DNA of 64,000 nucleotides from Trinickia fusca. GTDB taxonomy: Bacteria; Pseudomonadota; Gammaproteobacteria; Burkholderiales; Burkholderiaceae. Below are positions 12,835 to 20,943 of this stretch, piece after piece. Under the pieces are notes generated by a model. The model saw only the letters and a program-made list of their open reading frames with translations. It was not told the DNA's origin and did not search any database. Each line of letters begins with the position of its first letter. Positions within the stretch are counted from its first letter, which is position 1. The DNA lies in contig NZ_RBZV01000011.1 of assembly GCF_003628145.1 (NCBI RefSeq), positions 62,001 through 126,000 of the forward strand. Reading direction: 5' to 3'. The translations under genes and the position numbers were made by a program.

Positions 12835-13890
12835 TCAGCCGTCGGTGGAATCGTCTTCGTCCTCGTAGGCGCCGAGCCGGTTGTACAGCGTCTTCAGGCT
12901 CACGCCTAGCGCCTTGGCTGCGCGCCGCTTGTCGCCGCCGCAGAATTTGAGGGTGCCGAGGATGATCTGGCGCTGTGCTTCGGCGAGCGGCGTGCCGACC
13001 CAGATGCTCATCGCATCGCCTTGCGTGACGGCTTTCTTCGAGCGTGCGGCCAGACGCGGGTGTTCGATCTCGACGGTCTTCTCGGCGAGGATGAAGGCGC
13101 GATAGACGCTGTTCTTGAGCTCGCGCACGTTGCCGGGCCACGAGTAAGTGCGCAGCGTCTCCTTCGCGCGCTTGCCGAATGCCTTGTTCGTGCCTTCCTG
13201 TGCGTTGAGCTCGGCGAGGAAGTGTTGCGCGAGCAGTTCGCGGTCGCCTTCACGTTCGCGTAGCGGTGGTGCGCGTAGCGGGAAGACGGCGAGCCGGTAC
13301 ATGAGGTCCTCGCGCAAGCCGTTCTCCTTCACGGCCAGGAGCGGATCACGGTTGGTCGCGGCCACGACGCGCACGTCGCTGCGCTGAAGCTCGGAGCCGC
13401 CCACGCGATAGAAGGTGCCGGTCTCGAGCGCGCGCAGCAGCTTGACCTGCCGCACGGGCATCATTTCGGTGATTTCGTCGAGAAACAGCGTGCCGCCGTT
13501 CGCGTGCTCGAAGTAGCCGGCGCGGCCCTGCACAGCGCCCGTGAAGCTGCCGCGCTCGTGGCCGAACAGCTCGGCTTCGATGAGGCTGTCCGGAATCGCG
13601 CCACAATTGACGGCCACGAACGGGCCGTCCTTGCGCGCGCTACGGTCGTGGATCGTGCGCGCGATGAGCTCCTTGCCGGTGCCCGACTCGCCGACGATCA
13701 ATACCGCAGCATCCGTGGCGGCCACGCGTTCGATCTGCGCATAGAGCTCGAGCATCACCTGTGACGAGCCATACAGCAAGCCGTATGATTCGAGCCCTGC
13801 CGCATTGCGCGTGAGGCTCTTCTCGAGCCGTTGCGAGGCGCCGTTGTCCGGCGCCGTGGCGGGGGTGTCGTAATCGCTTGATGCGGTCAT
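12835..13890 (-). CDS. Sigma-54 enhancer-binding protein lacking a receiver domain
   Basis: AAA+ activator of sigma-54 RNA polymerase, 351 aa from the ATG at 13890. It opens with about 35 residues of poorly ordered sequence rather than a sensory domain. The AAA+ core has Walker A GESGTGKE (67-74), a GSFTGA sigma-54-contact loop (114-119; Ser replaces the usual second-position Ala), Walker B GGTLFLDEITEM and the arginine finger region. A Fis-type HTH (AAKALGVSLKTLYNRL) closes the protein. With no receiver or PAS it may be controlled by a partner protein (PspF-like) or be constitutive. It diverges from the small membrane protein gene at 14167. Confidence 0.92.
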   Translation of the reverse strand: MTASSDYDTPATAPDNGASQRLEKSLTRNAAGLESYGLLYGSSQVMLELYAQIERVAATDAAVLIVGESGTGKELIARTIHDRSARKDGPFVAVNCGAIPDSLIEAELFGHERGSFTGAVQGRAGYFEHANGGTLFLDEITEMMPVRQVKLLRALETGTFYRVGGSELQRSDVRVVAATNRDPLLAVKENGLREDLMYRLAVFPLRAPPLREREGDRELLAQHFLAELNAQEGTNKAFGKRAKETLRTYSWPGNVRELKNSVYRAFILAEKTVEIEHPRLAARSKKAVTQGDAMSIWVGTPLAEAQRQIILGTLKFCGGDKRRAAKALGVSLKTLYNRLGAYEDEDDSTDG

Positions 13891-14166
13891 GTACTCGCAG
13901 TCCCGAGAATACGCTCGCCGGTGGAGGGGGGGCTCATGCCCGACGGCGCGCTTCGCTAATCGCAAACAGCTATTTAACCATGCGTCGGGTCCGCCGCGCC
14001 GCAGGCTCGCCATGACAGGGGCTGGCGCGCAACGTGTGGGAGCATGCTGCCGCACGTTGCGGAACTCACCGCCGCCGAATCGATCCGATCGTTTGACCGG
14101 CTATCTGATCGTCCGTATTTCGGGCGGCATTCGTCATTCGTTTCGAACCAATGCGAGGGGGATACG

Positions 14167-14433
14167 ATGGCTCATCCCAGAATCGGCTTTTTCGGTGCGC
14201 TCGTCGCGGTGGGCGGCTTGATCGCATGGCGCTGGGCGCAGAAGCATCGCGCGTCGCAGGCCCGGCTCGTTAGCGAGTTGAACCGCTGGGAGGGCGAGGG
14301 CGGCGCGGTGACCTCCGCCTCGCAAACGGCGCCTGCCATGTCGGAAGCTGGTACGCCACCCGGCATCGTGCCGAACGGAGCGGGCCGTGCAGGCAGCACG
14401 CACGACGCGTGGCATTTTCCGCATGGCGCCTAG
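14167..14433 (+). CDS. Small single-pass membrane protein
   Basis: 88-aa protein starting at the ATG at 14167 behind GAGGGGG. One hydrophobic segment at about residues 7-21 (IGFFGALVAVGGLIAW) is followed by a basic flank (QKHRASQARL) and a polar, Gly/Pro-rich tail, suggesting an N-in or N-out bitopic inner-membrane protein. I do not recognise a family. It lies between two sigma-54 activator genes and might be a partner of one of them (inference only). Confidence 0.6.
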   Translation: MAHPRIGFFGALVAVGGLIAWRWAQKHRASQARLVSELNRWEGEGGAVTSASQTAPAMSEAGTPPGIVPNGAGRAGSTHDAWHFPHGA

Positions 14434-14637
14434 GGTCTGTCGTCGATGTAGACAGGCTTGGCAAGCCGTGCAAAGTAGTGGCCGGTAGCGTGGGTGGCTC
14501 GCCGGCAAGCGCGAGAGGCACAAGCGCAGGCACAATGATGCAACTGATCGAGTGCGCAGGCCGAGAGCCCGGCGCGCCGGCGACTGTGCGCTCGAGTGCA
14601 TTCGCTCAACCCTGATAAACGACACGATAGAGTTCCG

Positions 14638-16044
14638 ATGCCTCATGTGCTGATTGTCGACGACGACCCCCAAACCCGCGAAGCCCTCGTAGCGATCATC
14701 GCCGAAGACGGCCTGACCACGGCGACGGCCGGCGATCTGCGCGAGGCGCGCATCCAGCTGGTGCGGCAGACGCCGGACGTCGTGTTCACGGATTTGCAGT
14801 TGCCCGACGGCAGCGGCGTCGATTTGTTCGAAGATCTGGATCCGCGCTCAGGCGTCGAGATCGTCGTCATCACCGGTCACGCGACCGTCGAGTCGGCCGT
14901 GACGGCGCTCAAGATGGGTGCCTCCGACTATCTCGTCAAACCCATCAACATGCAGCGCGTGAAGGCCGTGCTTGACCGGCTGCCGCGCGCGGGCGACCTG
15001 AAGGCACAGATCGGCACGCTGCGCGGCGAGCTGCGGCGCATGGGCCGCTTCGGCCTCATGCTGGGCGGCTCGCCAGCCATGCAATCGGTCTACGACCAGA
15101 TCGGGCGGGTCGCGCCGACGGCTGCGTCGGTGCTGCTCGTCGGCGAGTCGGGCACCGGCAAGGAAGTGGCGGCGCAGACGATCCACGAACTGAGCTTGCG
15201 GCGCAAGCATCCGTTTTTGGCCGTCAATTGCGGCGCGATCTCGCCTAACCTGATCGAGTCGGAGATGTTCGGACACGAGCGCGGCTCGTTTACGGGTGCC
15301 GATCGTCAGCACAAGGGCTATTTCGAGCGCGCCGGCGGCGGCACGATCTTCCTTGACGAAATCACCGAGATGCCGGCCGAGCTGCAGGTCAAATTCCTGC
15401 GGGTGCTCGAGACCGGGATGTTCATGCGCGTGGGCACGACCAAGGAGATCGAGACCGACGTGCGTGTGATCGCCGCGACGAACCGCGATCCCGAAGAGGC
15501 CGTGCTCGAAGGCAAGCTGCGGCTCGATCTTTATCACCGCTTGAACGTGTTTCCGATCAGCCTGCCGCCGCTGCGCGAGCGCGGCAACGACGTGTGGCTG
15601 CTCGCGCAGTCGTTTCTCGACGAGCACAACGAGCGGGGCGGCACACACAAGGCGTTCCCGTCTGCGACCAAGGAGATGCTGCTGTCATACCCGTGGCCTG
15701 GCAACGTGCGAGAGCTCAAGAACTACGTGCAGCGTGCCTACATCATGGCCGGCGAGCAAGCCGATACGACGGCTGCGGTGCCGCTGCAGATCTCGCTGTC
15801 CAAACCGTCGACGGGCACGGCCGTGACGATTCCGTTCGGTACCTCGCTCGCGCAAGCCGACCGTCAACTGATCCTCGCGACGCTCGAGCAATGCGGTGGC
15901 GTGAAGACGCGCGCGGCCGAGATTCTCGGCATCAGTTTGAAGACGCTCTACAACCGGCTCGTCGAATATGGCGACGAGGCGAAGCAGACGGGCGGCGAGG
16001 CTGCCGCGACTGGCGAACCGGGTGCAACGGCGTCCGGCAAGTGA
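14638..16044 (+). CDS. Sigma-54-dependent response regulator, NtrC family
   Basis: Two-component activator of sigma-54 promoters, 468 aa from the ATG at 14638. The receiver domain is at 1-115 (IVDDD, phospho-acceptor Asp52 in VVFTDLQLPDG, Lys about 101 in LVKPIN). The AAA+ domain has Walker A GESGTGKE at 169-176, a GSFTGA loop at 216-221 and GGTIFLDEITEM. A Fis-type HTH (AAEILGISLKTLYNRL) closes it. The AAA+ and HTH are strikingly similar to the protein at 12835-13890. No cognate kinase gene is in the window. It lies upstream of otsA and rpoN. Confidence 0.93.
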   Translation: MPHVLIVDDDPQTREALVAIIAEDGLTTATAGDLREARIQLVRQTPDVVFTDLQLPDGSGVDLFEDLDPRSGVEIVVITGHATVESAVTALKMGASDYLVKPINMQRVKAVLDRLPRAGDLKAQIGTLRGELRRMGRFGLMLGGSPAMQSVYDQIGRVAPTAASVLLVGESGTGKEVAAQTIHELSLRRKHPFLAVNCGAISPNLIESEMFGHERGSFTGADRQHKGYFERAGGGTIFLDEITEMPAELQVKFLRVLETGMFMRVGTTKEIETDVRVIAATNRDPEEAVLEGKLRLDLYHRLNVFPISLPPLRERGNDVWLLAQSFLDEHNERGGTHKAFPSATKEMLLSYPWPGNVRELKNYVQRAYIMAGEQADTTAAVPLQISLSKPSTGTAVTIPFGTSLAQADRQLILATLEQCGGVKTRAAEILGISLKTLYNRLVEYGDEAKQTGGEAAATGEPGATASGK

Positions 16045-16195
16045 GCGGCATGACGCTTTTCATAGGCATCCGATGAATGCCGCACGGTACGCGTTACAAA
16101 TTTGGCGCAATTGTTACCGCGCGAACGTGTGCTCGGCATCCTAGACTTAGTTCTTGAGTTGCCCGCCGGGCATTCGCCTTCTGTCGGAGGCTTCC

Positions 16196-16417
16196 ATGAG
16201 ACACCCAGCGTTGCGGCGCTCTGCGCGCCGGTCGTCGAAGCGCGAAGCAAAAAACGGCATCGTCCCGGGGATGACGCCGCCGCCGATCTCCGAAGATCCG
16301 GCCGCGCAAAACCGCGTGGCGCCCGACACGCCGCCTGACGGCGAGCACAACCAAGGCGGGGCCCGTCGCGAAGGGATCGAGTATCAACGCGATCTCGGCT
16401 CCGAGCAGGACGCCTGA
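16196..16417 (+). CDS. Small hydrophilic hypothetical protein
   Basis: 73-aa protein starting at 16196 behind CGGAGG. It has an Arg/Lys-rich N-terminus (RRSARRSSKREAK), then a Pro/Asp/Gly-rich, probably disordered segment (PPPISEDPAAQNR, PPDGEHNQGG) and an acidic end. There is no membrane segment or signal peptide. No family is recognised; the good ribosome-binding site and biased codon use support coding. It lies between the response regulator and otsA, within the sigma-54 block. Confidence 0.55.
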   Translation: MRHPALRRSARRSSKREAKNGIVPGMTPPPISEDPAAQNRVAPDTPPDGEHNQGGARREGIEYQRDLGSEQDA

Positions 16418-16509
16418 TCTTTCCCTTTCGCGAGGTCTTTTTTCGCGAGACGACACCCGAGCGAACTGATCGCGCGGCCTGATACGGTCGTGCGACAGGT
16501 GCCGCGTCG

Positions 16510-16525
16510 GTGTCTTACAGGACAC
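16510..16525 (+). promoter_or_regulatory. GTGTC-N6-GACAC dyad upstream of the otsA -24/-12 element
   Basis: Inverted repeat with arms 16510-16514 and 16521-16525, extended by near-matching GCGTCG/CGACGC flanks. It sits about 16 bases upstream of the -24 element. It could be an activator-binding site, although enhancers usually lie farther upstream. Confidence 0.35.
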
Positions 16526-16539
16526 GCGACGCACTCATG

Positions 16540-16556
16540 CGGCACGGCACTTGCAT
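16540..16556 (+). promoter_or_regulatory. Sigma-54 (-24/-12) promoter of otsA
   Basis: The element reads CGGCACG, four bases, TTGCA. GG at 16541-16542 and GC at 16553-16554 are separated by exactly ten bases. Against the consensus TGGCACG-N4-TTGCW only the leading T differs. Predicted transcription start is about 12 bases downstream, leaving about a 55-base leader before the otsA ATG at 16622. Flanking genes encode two sigma-54 activators and RpoN. Confidence 0.75.
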
Positions 16557-16621
16557 GTCGAAGCAATCGGCGGTGGATTTTCCCCGTCATGCGAGAAGCC
16601 AATCGAAGAGGTAGTGCCGCA

Positions 16622-18043
16622 ATGAGCAGACTAATCGTGGTGTCGAACCGCGTTGCGCCGACGCAGGAGGGCAGTCCGGCTGCCGGAGGGCTTGCCATAG
16701 GCGTGCTGGACGCTTTGAAGGAGACGGGCGGCGTCTGGTTCGGGTGGAACGGCGAGATCGTCGGGCACGCGCAGCCACCCTCGATCGAGAAGCAGGGCAG
16801 CGTGACCTACGCGACCGTCGGCTTGACGCGGCGCGATTATGATCAGTACTACCGAGGATTCTCGAACGCCACGTTATGGCCGACGTTCCACTATCGCACC
16901 GATCTGTCGCGCTACGATCGTCAGGAGTACGCCGGCTATCTGCGCGTGAACGTATCGTTCGCCAAGCAATTGGCTGCGATGCTGGAGCCTGGCGACATGA
17001 TCTGGGTGCACGACTATCACCTGCTGCCGTTCGCGTGCGCGCTGCGCAATCTCGGCGTGACCAACCCCATCGGATTCTTCCTGCATATTCCGTTTCCGGT
17101 GCCCGAGATGCTGCGCACGGTGCCGCCGCACGAAGAGCTCGTCAAATGCCTGTGCAGCTATGACCTCGTCGGGTTTCAAACCGAGTCCGACCGTCAGTCG
17201 TTCGTCGACTACGTCGAACGCGGGGGCTTTGGGAGCGTCAGCGAAGACGGCATGATGCAGGCGTTCGGCCGTGTTCTGAAGGTGGGCGCCTATCCGATCG
17301 GCATCTATCCCGATGCGGTCGCGCAGGCGGCCGAGCAGTACGCTCATCGCAAGCCTGTTTTGGCGCTGCGCGATGCGACACGCGGGCGCCAACTCATCAT
17401 GAGCGTCGATCGGCTCGATTACTCGAAGGGGCTCGTCGAGCGCTTCCAGGCGTTCGAGCGGTTGCTGCTTCATTCGCCCGGCTTGCACGGACGGGTCTCG
17501 CTCGTCCAGATTGCTCCGCCGACACGCTCGGACGTGCAGACCTATCAGCGCATCCGTCAGACGCTCGAAGGCGAAGCAGGACGTATCAACGGCCGTTTCG
17601 CGCAGCTCGACTGGACGCCCATTCAATACCTGAACCGCAATTACGAGCGCAATCTGCTGATGTCGTTGTTCAGGCTTGCTCAGGTCGGTTACGTGACGCC
17701 GCTGCGCGACGGCATGAATCTCGTTGCCAAGGAATACGTCGCATCGCAGGACCCGAGCGACCCGGGTGTGCTGGTGCTGTCGCAGTTCGCGGGCGCCGCC
17801 GAGCAACTGCCCGGTGCACTCGTCGTCAATCCGTTCGATCTGACACAGATGGCCGATGCGCTCGCGCGTGCGCTGGCGATGCCGCTCAAGGAGCGTCAGG
17901 CGCGGTATGCCGACATGATGGCGAGGCTGCGGGCGAACGATCTGTCGACGTGGCGCGACGCATTCCTCGACGATTTGCGTCACGTCGCCACGGCAGCCTC
18001 CGTGACGCGCAAGGCCGTCAAGCTTGCCGATATTGCGGCGTAA
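16622..18043 (+). CDS. otsA: Trehalose-6-phosphate synthase (GT20)
   Basis: Condenses UDP-glucose with glucose-6-phosphate to trehalose-6-phosphate in osmotic, heat and desiccation tolerance. The 473 aa start at MSRLIVVSNRVA (ATG 16622), the family N-terminus. Recognisable features are the N-loop (AGGLAIGV), the YYRGFSNATLWPTFHY segment, WVHDYHLLPFA, SVDRLDYSKGL and the nucleotide-sugar site TPLRDGMNLVAKEYVA. An upstream frame extends to 16490 but runs through the promoter and is not used. No otsB phosphatase gene is adjacent. A near-consensus sigma-54 promoter precedes it. Confidence 0.96.
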   Translation: MSRLIVVSNRVAPTQEGSPAAGGLAIGVLDALKETGGVWFGWNGEIVGHAQPPSIEKQGSVTYATVGLTRRDYDQYYRGFSNATLWPTFHYRTDLSRYDRQEYAGYLRVNVSFAKQLAAMLEPGDMIWVHDYHLLPFACALRNLGVTNPIGFFLHIPFPVPEMLRTVPPHEELVKCLCSYDLVGFQTESDRQSFVDYVERGGFGSVSEDGMMQAFGRVLKVGAYPIGIYPDAVAQAAEQYAHRKPVLALRDATRGRQLIMSVDRLDYSKGLVERFQAFERLLLHSPGLHGRVSLVQIAPPTRSDVQTYQRIRQTLEGEAGRINGRFAQLDWTPIQYLNRNYERNLLMSLFRLAQVGYVTPLRDGMNLVAKEYVASQDPSDPGVLVLSQFAGAAEQLPGALVVNPFDLTQMADALARALAMPLKERQARYADMMARLRANDLSTWRDAFLDDLRHVATAASVTRKAVKLADIAA

Positions 18044-18092
18044 GCGGCAGGGTCGGCAGGTAATCAGTCCGCAGCGGCTCGCGTGATGTCCG

Positions 18093-19586
18093 TTATGGCT
18101 GGCGCCGCAACGGTGCCGGCGGCACCTTGAGCAGGTTGCGGTACTTGGCGACCGTGCGGCGGGCAACGATCATGCCGTCTTGCGAGAGCCGCTGCGCGAG
18201 GCTCACATCCGACAGCGGATGGCGTGGGTCTTCCTGCTCGATCATCTCCTTGATCAACGCGCGCACGGCCGCGGCCGAGCAGCGCCCACCCGTTTCGGTC
18301 GCGAGTTCGCGCGGGAAGAAGTGGCGGAACTCGAAGATGCCGCGCGGCGTGGCCATGTACTTGTTGCCCGAGGCGCGCGAGATGGTCGATTCGTGCAGGC
18401 CGAGCTCATCGGCCAGCTGGCTCAGCACGAGCGGTTTCAGCGCGATCTCGCCGTAGTCGAAGAACGCCTTCTGATACGACACGATGCATTGGGCGACACG
18501 CTGGATCGTCGTGAAGCGTTGCGCACAATTGCGCAGCAGCCAGCGCGCTTCCTGCAACTGTTGCGCGAGCGGTGAGCCGCTTCGGCCCGCCGATTGCGAG
18601 AACAGCTCTACGTAGACGCGATGGATGCGCGCACGCGGCAACACGGCCGGATTGATCGTCGCGACCCAGCGCTGCTTCTCGCGGCGCACGATCACATCGG
18701 GGATCACATAGTTGTCGTCGACGCGCGCATAGTGTTGGCCTGGCTTCGGATCGAGCTTGCGCACGAGTGCGCAGGCCGTACGCAGCGCCTGTGCCGAACA
18801 GCTGAGCTGCTTCTGCAATTCGGCATGCTCGCGGCGCGCGAGGCGCTCGAGATGGTGCTCGACGATCTCGAGCGCGAAGGCGCGTCCCGGGGTGTCGGCA
18901 GGCAGCGCATCGAGTTGCAGGCTCAGGCATTCGGACAACGAACGGGCGCCGACGCCGGGTCGATCGAGCGTCTGCACGAGCCGCAACGCCACGCGCAGCT
19001 CCGCTTCGGTCAGCGGCGGAGCGGTCGGGAACGCCGTGGCAAGGTCGGCCAGCGATTCGCGCAGATAGCCGTCGTCTTCCAGCGTTTCGATGACGATCTG
19101 AGCAGCCGCGCGGTCGCGCTCGCCGAGCGGATACAAGTGCAGCAGATCGAGCAGATGCTCGTGCATCGTCGGTTGCGAATGGGCCCAGGCACCCGGGTCG
19201 ACGTCGTCGCCATCGCCGTGATGGCGCGGGGCGGTGTGCGTCGACCAGTCCTGGGCGAAATCTCCGGGTGCGTCGTCGCCGACGGTGGCCGGCGCGGTAT
19301 CGGCGCCGGCCAGGTTGTCGTAGCGGTCCGTCGGCTCGGCCATGGCGGGAGGCGCGACGTCGCCTCCCGCATCGATCGTTGCGTGCGATTCATGCGCGCC
19401 GTTTACGGTGGCCGCCGGATCTTCCGTCAGCGGCTCGTCGGGTTCGAGGAACGGATTGGTGTCGAGGGCCTGCCGCAACTCGCGCTCGAACTCCAGCGAC
19501 GACAACTGCAGCAGCCGCACCGATTGCTGAAGCCGAGGCGTCAGTGCGACGTGTTGTTTGTTGCGCAGTTCCAGAGTGGGTGGCAT
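18093..19586 (-). CDS. rpoN: RNA polymerase sigma-54 factor
   Basis: Alternative sigma factor recognising -24/-12 promoters. The 497 aa have the N-terminal activator-interacting region I (RLQQSVRLLQLSSLEFEREL), an acidic linker region II (about 50-150), the core-binding domain and C-terminal DNA-binding elements with the RpoN box ARRTVAKYRN about 20 residues from the end. The usual betaproteobacterial rpoN lies in an lptB-rpoN-hpf-ptsN cluster; none of those genes is here, so this may be a second copy. It converges on otsA with about 50 bases between the stops. Confidence 0.94.
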   Translation of the reverse strand: MPPTLELRNKQHVALTPRLQQSVRLLQLSSLEFERELRQALDTNPFLEPDEPLTEDPAATVNGAHESHATIDAGGDVAPPAMAEPTDRYDNLAGADTAPATVGDDAPGDFAQDWSTHTAPRHHGDGDDVDPGAWAHSQPTMHEHLLDLLHLYPLGERDRAAAQIVIETLEDDGYLRESLADLATAFPTAPPLTEAELRVALRLVQTLDRPGVGARSLSECLSLQLDALPADTPGRAFALEIVEHHLERLARREHAELQKQLSCSAQALRTACALVRKLDPKPGQHYARVDDNYVIPDVIVRREKQRWVATINPAVLPRARIHRVYVELFSQSAGRSGSPLAQQLQEARWLLRNCAQRFTTIQRVAQCIVSYQKAFFDYGEIALKPLVLSQLADELGLHESTISRASGNKYMATPRGIFEFRHFFPRELATETGGRCSAAAVRALIKEMIEQEDPRHPLSDVSLAQRLSQDGMIVARRTVAKYRNLLKVPPAPLRRQP

Positions 19587-19730
19587 GGCGGTTGTCCTGG
19601 GAAGTCAGTTTCCCGTTTGTTTAAGCAACCGTCATACCAGTCGCTGCCATTTGCGTGTCGAATACGTTCTTGGCCCATTGTCTGCTGGTCGGCGCAAGGC
19701 AATGCGCGGCATGTTTTACAGGGTGCAGTG

Positions 19731-19773
19731 CAAAAAACGCGGGGTCGCGCAGAAAGCAGGGAGCGACCCCGCG
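19731..19773 (-). terminator. Intrinsic terminator of the 20943-19864 operon
   Basis: Perfect 11-bp GC-rich stem (19738-19748 with 19763-19773) and a 14-base loop. On the minus strand a run of six T follows (complement of 19732-19737). It lies about 90 bases past the stop of the four-helix-bundle gene. Confidence 0.85.
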
Positions 19774-19863
19774 TGCGGCACGGTCCGCGTGTTGCAACTG
19801 GGGGAAGCACCTTACCGGAGGAGGGGGAGCGCGGCTGCGTTCACGGTCACCCCATTCGTTATC

Positions 19864-20319
19864 CTAATGATTGAGCGGGAGCGTGTAACGCACGCGCAAC
19901 TCGTCGAGCCGCGCGTGGTTGTACAGCACGCCGCGATATTGACGCTCGACGATGAGCCGCACATCGGCCGGCAAGTCTTCGTCGAGCGCCTCACGGTAGT
20001 GCTTGCGAGCGAGCTCCTCGCCCTTTGTGCGTTCTTCGATGATCTCGCGGTCGTCGCGCGCCGCGAACACCGTGCGCAAGTCGAGCCAGCCGCGATGCAG
20101 CGCGCCCGTGAGCGTACCGTGCGTATGCGGTCGTCCGCCCAGGCGAGCGACGATGTCACCCAGTTCGAGCGCATCGTGCGAGCAGTCATTCGCCCGGCTC
20201 GTGAACAGCGGCCTGAGCTGCCGGCTGAGCGTCTCGCCGGCTGCTTTGCGAAAGTCGCGCTCACTATCCTTCGACGTTTCCGCGAGGTCGTTGAGTACTG
20301 CAATCAACCGGCTTCCCAT
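19864..20319 (-). CDS. PA2169-family four-helix-bundle protein (DUF2383)
   Basis: 151-aa cytoplasmic helical protein of the ferritin-like DUF2383 family. Function is not established; members are often found near stress genes. Features include the N-terminal helix VLNDLAETSKDSERDF, the LGGRPHTHGTLTGALHRGWLDLR core with conserved His and Gly, and ALDEDLPADVRLIVERQY before the last helix. It is the second gene of a two-gene operon, 36 bases after the glycine-zipper gene, with a strong terminator beyond. Confidence 0.85.
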   Translation of the reverse strand: MGSRLIAVLNDLAETSKDSERDFRKAAGETLSRQLRPLFTSRANDCSHDALELGDIVARLGGRPHTHGTLTGALHRGWLDLRTVFAARDDREIIEERTKGEELARKHYREALDEDLPADVRLIVERQYRGVLYNHARLDELRVRYTLPLNH

Positions 20320-20355
20320 TCCAGCTCCTCAATGTCCTCGATGCGCGGGTCACCG

Positions 20356-20943
20356 TCAGGCTTCGCGCTGATTGACCTCGAGCGGCACGGGCGGCGTGGT
20401 CGGATCGAAGTCGGCCCAGCGACCTTGCTGCCAGCGTCCGTTCGCCCGCTCGATGGCTTGACCCCCGGCGTGCGCGAGCACCTGTGCCGCGCGCAATTGG
20501 TTGTCGGGCGACACATGCACGGCCACGAGCACACCCGAATCGCGCGTTTCGCGGTGAACGGCGTGTTGCGCGACCTCGCTCACGCTCGGCGACGTGCTCA
20601 TGCGTCTGTGCACGGTGGCACCCAGCATGGCCCCGACGTAGGCGCCCACGCCCGCTGCGGCAATGGCGACGACGACGGAACTCGATGTTGCGGCAAACAC
20701 GGCGACGCCGACCACGGCGCCGGCCACTGCACCGACGATCGCTCCGCGACCGGGATGTTTGACGGGATTGAGCACGAACGGCGCGGCATGCAGGCTGTCG
20801 GCTGCCACATGTGCGTGTTGCCCGCGCGGGTTCACGAAAAACAGGGTGACGTCTTCCTCGATGAAGCCTTCGGCGAACAACTGCCGGGCGCCGGCTTCGG
20901 CAGCGGAGAACGTGGTGAAGCGTCCTGCGACGATCAGTGACAT
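20356..20943 (-). CDS. Glycine-zipper-type membrane protein
   Basis: 195-aa protein. The N-terminal about 60 residues are soluble and resemble a stress-type alpha/beta fold (IVAGRFTTFSAAEAGARQLFAEGF). A central 80-125 stretch is Gly/Ala/Val-rich with small-residue spacing (RGAIVGAVAGAVVGVAVFA, GVGAYVGAMLGA), typical of glycine zippers that insert in membranes. The hydrophilic C-terminal region (VLVAVHVSPDNQLRAAQVL) resembles a second ferredoxin-like unit. It is the first gene of the operon with the DUF2383 protein and has an AAGGAG site before its ATG. Confidence 0.75.
   Translation of the reverse strand: MSLIVAGRFTTFSAAEAGARQLFAEGFIEEDVTLFFVNPRGQHAHVAADSLHAAPFVLNPVKHPGRGAIVGAVAGAVVGVAVFAATSSSVVVAIAAAGVGAYVGAMLGATVHRRMSTSPSVSEVAQHAVHRETRDSGVLVAVHVSPDNQLRAAQVLAHAGGQAIERANGRWQQGRWADFDPTTPPVPLEVNQREA

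Follow-up and report, generated by a model that had tools for sequence, protein, structure and literature searches.

A conserved candidate sigma-54 promoter precedes otsA at a locus encoding an NtrC-type response regulator and a second RpoN in Trinickia fusca and its relatives

The window analysed here is a stretch of 64,000 nucleotides from Trinickia fusca (contig NZ_RBZV01000011.1, positions 62,001 to 126,000). In it, a trehalose-6-phosphate synthase gene lies among genes for two sigma-54 activators and a sigma-54 factor, with the following features:

12838-14055, minus strand: gene for a second sigma-54 activator (Pfam; open frame as listed, the true start may lie further in)
14638-16044, plus strand: gene for an NtrC-type response regulator, here called RR (Pfam; ATG at 14638, with an in-frame GTG also at 14596)
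16196-16417, plus strand: small conserved frame of 73 aa (MRHPALRR...GIEYQRDLGSEQDA) between RR and otsA
16540-16555, plus strand: P1, predicted sigma-54 promoter of otsA, CGGCACG-N4-TTGCA (motif, spacing, conservation)
16622-18043, plus strand: otsA, trehalose-6-phosphate synthase, 473 aa (TIGR02400)
18093-19586, minus strand: rpoN2, second sigma-54 gene (Pfam)
19624-19639, minus strand: predicted sigma-54 promoter of rpoN2, TGGTATG-ACGG-TTGCT, 37 bases before the rpoN2 ATG

An equivalog model predicts that the trehalose gene encodes OtsA: the protein scored 591.1 bits against TIGR02400, above the curated cutoff of 564.85, and 628.5 against the other OtsA model, NF007513, under that model's cutoff of 759. 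No otsB gene was found beside it in the window. Since otsA is followed by the convergent rpoN2, it is probably transcribed alone. RR has a receiver (motif TDLQLPDG), an AAA+ domain with GSFTGA and Walker A motifs, and a Fis-type helix-turn-helix domain, a make-up that predicts an NtrC-type bacterial enhancer-binding protein. The second activator likewise has an AAA+ domain with GSFTGA and Walker A motifs and a Fis-type helix-turn-helix domain; Pfam found no receiver in it. RpoN2 carries the AID, core-binding, and DNA-binding domains of RpoN proteins and ARRTVAKYR, the usual RpoN box. The genome has two rpoN genes, rpoN2 in the window and another copy on contig C23. The earlier note on this DNA had placed the promoter between two sigma-54 activators and rpoN; Pfam supports that description, with the refinement that this rpoN is the second copy in the genome. 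The 73-aa frame had no Pfam match, and 46 of 48 scanned loci have a member of its family between RR and otsA.

P1, CGGCACGGCACTTGCA on the plus strand at 16540-16555, reads CGGCACG-GCAC-TTGCA. Its GG (16541-16542) and GC (16553-16554) are separated by ten bases, and 66 bases (16556-16621) lie between it and the otsA ATG at 16622, exactly as the earlier note had described. The spacing and the TGGCAC-like and TTGC-like context are those of a sigma-54 promoter. The single mismatch, C instead of T at the -26 base, was also correctly identified, with the refinement that a base other than T is normal at this promoter, T being present at only 1 of 50 orthologous activator-bearing loci. The otsA transcription start would be expected about 12 bases past the GC, near 16566. 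An upstream shift of the otsA start to a GTG at 16490, which would make the motif coding sequence, was ruled out: indels are frequent throughout the upstream alignment, and the OtsA match starts at an ATG in all 65 orthologous loci described below. No known RNA element was detected by Rfam at the gathering threshold in 14000-20500.

Searches with the motif gave mixed results. P1 was the only match in the window to YGGCACGN4TTGCW with zero mismatches. With up to two mismatches allowed, the window held 37 matches versus 33.4 expected, and in the whole genome (6.1 Mb, 41 contigs) the looser pattern YGGCAYRN4TTGCW matched 14 times versus 26 times for a reversed control pattern. Because the motif is not enriched in the genome, it does not by itself prove P1, and these counts favor a chance match in a GC-rich upstream region. 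A sorting of the 14 genome-wide matches by their position in long frames was dropped; 13 of them, the otsA site included, lay inside stop-to-stop frames of at least 450 bases.

The decisive comparison was with relatives. OtsA was searched in 150 genomes of the family, yielding an orthologous group of 65 loci (L083-L147) with at least 71% identity. An RR match of at least 81% identity was found in 51 of these 65 genomes, which are called RR bearing; the best match in the other 14 was at most 61% identical. The strict core, GGCAYRN4TTGC, for which a first-order Markov model gives a chance of 0.0012 per upstream region, was present at all 51 RR-bearing loci, in eight genera. At 50 of them it was no more than 120 bp from the ATG; at the remaining one, L147, it was at -321, ahead of a frame for a proline-rich peptide directly upstream of otsA. 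The core was lost at 12 of the 14 RR-less orthologous loci (present at 0/12 for L127-L138 and 2/2 for L121 and L122), and among 71 other otsA loci (L012-L082) it was found at none within 120 bp and at two within 400 bp. Loss of the motif and of RR may have been a single event, as the 14 RR-less loci are all of one genus. Fisher tests on these counts take no account of relatedness and serve as description alone. Eight of nine named relatives outside the main count (L003-L011), all but Burkholderia pseudomultivorans, had the strict motif; L007 and L009, both among the eight, appear to repeat genomes already counted, those of L098 and L123.

An alignment of 50 upstream regions that was not anchored on the motif, and that left out L147 (because of its distant site), L121, and L122, gave the same picture. 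The only positions before the ATG conserved in at least 90% of the rows were 16541-16544 (GGCA), 16551-16554 (TTGC), and 16556 (T), and the columns gapped in the window never reached 75%. Because the core is conserved at orthologous loci, at 51 of 51 amid scrambled flanks, a chance match is rejected as highly improbable. The check that the earlier note had suggested, conservation of GG and GC in related genomes, thus came out in its favor. Direct sigma-54 control of otsA, as proposed there, is supported as probable by this conservation of a promoter-like core in orthologous upstream regions and by the presence of sigma-54 genes in the genome.

The same data bear on how much of otsA expression P1 would account for. 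P1 might be a minor or condition-specific promoter, with housekeeping or general-stress promoters driving most transcription. The Burkholderia-like relatives that lack the motif keep otsA, so another promoter can serve there, and trehalose genes of Caballeronia insecticola are also expressed at higher levels in stationary phase than in log phase (PMC10100943). Against this, a simple scan of 16040-16640 for sigma-70-like sites, which covers that promoter type alone, found none, and the highly conserved upstream positions are those of the sigma-54 core only. We regard a minor role for P1 as unlikely, though a serious contender.

If P1 is a sigma-54 promoter, RR is its most likely activator. For 49 of the 51 RR-bearing loci, the fetched sequence contains both RR and otsA, and at L141 a kinase gene lies between the two. 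The main activator of a genuine P1 could instead be the receiver-less neighbor or a remote protein such as NtrC. L121 and L122, both Burkholderia-like, keep the otsA core with neither RR nor the second activator at the locus; there, some other activator may serve, or the site may be a relic. Further, the second activator gene was beside RR at all seven RR-bearing loci fetched with wide flanks, and no RR binding site was recognized in a search for enhancers: gapped dyads exceeded those in shuffled sequences, the stretch takes in the small coding frame and terminator-like repeats, and none was assigned to an activator. The presence of RR near otsA at 49 of 51 loci and the intervening kinase gene argue against a different activator, as does the finding that neither activator was beside otsA at the RR-less loci, although the last observation applies equally to RR and to the second activator. 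On this evidence we consider it improbable that a protein other than RR is the main activator.

Other loci suggest a wider circuit around RR. Two genomes of one genus (g16) have a further gene between RR and otsA (L178, 6799-9411; L179, 6948-10058). It is preceded by a sigma-54 site and encodes a hybrid histidine kinase with a PAS domain, a candidate partner kinase of RR. Among the 49 loci that gave an RR-otsA interval, 26 have a second strict sigma-54 site (P2) about 100 to 200 bases past the RR match (e.g., L119, L143, and L172). P2 is followed by a frame for a small proline-rich protein, as judged by eye, in the listed rows of an alignment of 18 loci. No strict P2 was found in any genome of the window's genus, and the best candidate in the window, at 16103, departs from the pattern at four positions and has no GC; none is claimed. 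In two genomes of one genus (G016 and G037, loci L165 and L169), RR, the second activator, and rpoN2 occur together without otsA. RR must have other work in these genomes, because RR and rpoN2 are present there without this otsA. At L165, genes for hemerythrin-like and BrkB-like proteins occupy the place of otsA.

The predicted sigma-54 site upstream of rpoN2 was missed by the earlier note. Sites with at most two mismatches were found at 41 of 46 rpoN2 loci, that of the window included: 22 of the first 26 loci had one within 90 bp, nine of them perfect, and 19 of 20 further loci had one. The loci that failed were L167, L169, L175, L179, and L214. The rpoN2 start codons in this set were placed by similarity, and some of the site distances are approximate. 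No sigma-54 site was found upstream of the canonical rpoN (L001 and L180, which are the same gene).

The rpoN2 and otsA promoters differ at the -26 base. With up to four mismatches allowed, 45 of the 46 rpoN2 upstream regions contain a TGG-type site with GG-N10-GC. At the otsA promoters, T at -26 is present at a single RR-bearing locus; L121 and L122, the two RR-less loci with the motif, also have it. In a dereplicated set of 42 upstream regions, which includes these two and omits L147 and which is anchored on the motif and hence biased, T was found in two; with a background of 0.2 and relatedness ignored, the binomial tail is 0.006. Because T is at 1 of 50 otsA promoters and the TGG type is in 45 of 46 rpoN2 regions, the contrast is a lead for a preference between the sigma-54 paralogues, and no more than a lead. 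In Rhodobacter and Bradyrhizobium, sigma-54 paralogues are reported to have promoters that differ at -11 or -12 (as quoted in PMC3162934).

A fuller scheme could be built on this lead. Canonical RpoN would read the TGG-type promoter and thereby make RpoN2, and the non-T promoters (CGG, AGG, or GGG) that precede otsA and the proline-rich peptide frame would be read by RpoN2 together with RR. The base at -26 would contribute to distinguishing between the promoters of the two sigma-54 factors. Such a circuit would switch on osmoprotection as the bacteria enter a host. As a whole we hold this scheme to be doubtful. In two genomes (G085 and G149), P1 is retained and the one rpoN match has a score close to that of the canonical copy; the RpoN box in the window is of the usual form. 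Because of that single canonical-like match, RpoN2 is not strictly needed in these two genomes, and the idea that P1 depends on rpoN2 was dropped; the rpoN to which the earlier note pointed need not be the one that serves P1.

Taken together, the data lead us to assign a probability of roughly 85% to the following reading: otsA is driven by a sigma-54 promoter that has its -24/-12 core at 16540-16555 and is opened by the neighboring RR, in a locus whose rpoN2 is itself driven by sigma-54. Sigma-54 RNA polymerase would bind P1 as a closed complex, and RR, once phosphorylated by some kinase, would open that complex through ATP hydrolysis, after which otsA would be transcribed alone. The locus would also produce RpoN2, itself under a sigma-54 promoter, giving a probable feed-forward or positive loop. 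The likely purpose would be more trehalose-6-phosphate synthesis in response to an environmental cue, perhaps osmotic or host derived, apart from the other otsA copies in the genome. In this model the motif, its conservation, its loss from most genomes without the activator, and the domains of the proteins are observations; we infer that sigma-54 is required, which activator and which sigma paralogue act, and what the signal is.

Parts of this arrangement have parallels in known systems. The Barrios consensus, TGGCACRN4TTGCW, used to scan the Ralstonia solanacearum genome (PMC4371752), has the same core elements and spacing as P1. R. solanacearum also resembles the window in having a sigma-54 site before rpoN2; the site is 63 bases upstream, and rpoN2 expression requires rpoN1 (PMC4371752). 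The sigma-54 promoter of rpoN2 is therefore not new, since this case is published. In contrast with the window, where the promoter is on otsA and an activator gene adjoins it, otsA is not named in approximately rows 21 to 40 of the 40 target rows of that scan, and the word "trehalose" is absent from the main text (PMC4371752). In another relative, Paraburkholderia phymatum, the sigma-54 regulon has been studied in nodules; unlike here, the main text of that study mentions neither "trehalose" nor "otsA" (PMC5979394). Escherichia coli shares with the window the OtsA enzyme and its place in stress protection. Its otsBA genes are under RpoS, according to the discussion in PMC10100943, whereas otsA in the window has no otsB beside it and carries a predicted sigma-54 promoter. 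A link between sigma-54 and otsA in this family was not found in the part of the literature covered, and one may already have been published. The promoter is of an ordinary type, and the target gene is unexpected.

A phenotype for this otsA may come from Caballeronia (Burkholderia) insecticola, which has three otsA paralogues (PMC10100943). One of these, ACDS08420 (BRPE64_ACDS08420), is 12-fold upregulated in gut symbionts; no induction is reported for ACDS13990 or ACDS19490 ("data not shown"), and otsB is ACDS19500 (PMC10100943). An otsA deletion mutant, which we take to be a mutant of the ACDS08420 paralogue, is osmosensitive and poor at initial colonization (PMC10100943). On the contig taken to be chromosome 1 of strain RPE64 (3,013,410 bases; PMC3703598), we located otsA copies at 892,728, 1,446,107, and 2,037,241, the last beside otsB. 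Their order matches that of the locus tags, at about 1.03 to 1.06 kb per tag step. The first copy is the orthologue of the window gene and has AGGCACAGCTTTTGCA 55 bases upstream of otsA, and a sigma-54 site also lies 55 bases upstream of rpoN2 in this species. No strict site was found at the other two copies in the fetched loci. Because copy order matches the locus tags, the otsA gene with the sigma-54 site would be ACDS08420, and it thus appears to be the paralogue induced in the insect gut, a gene-order inference with no sequence match to the named tag. ACDS08420 is then like the window gene in its gene order and in the sigma-54 sites before otsA and rpoN2. The published account differs from ours in that "promoter" and "rpoN" occur 0 times in its main text; the sections covered name no regulator of the induction (PMC10100943).

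The finding would place trehalose synthesis, which textbooks describe as a general-stress output, under sigma-54 and probably under a two-component activator as well, in several genera. For Caballeronia, it provides a specific candidate for the control that induces otsA on entry into the bean bug gut. It also points to a possible function of the second rpoN in these bacteria, a gene that is poorly understood.
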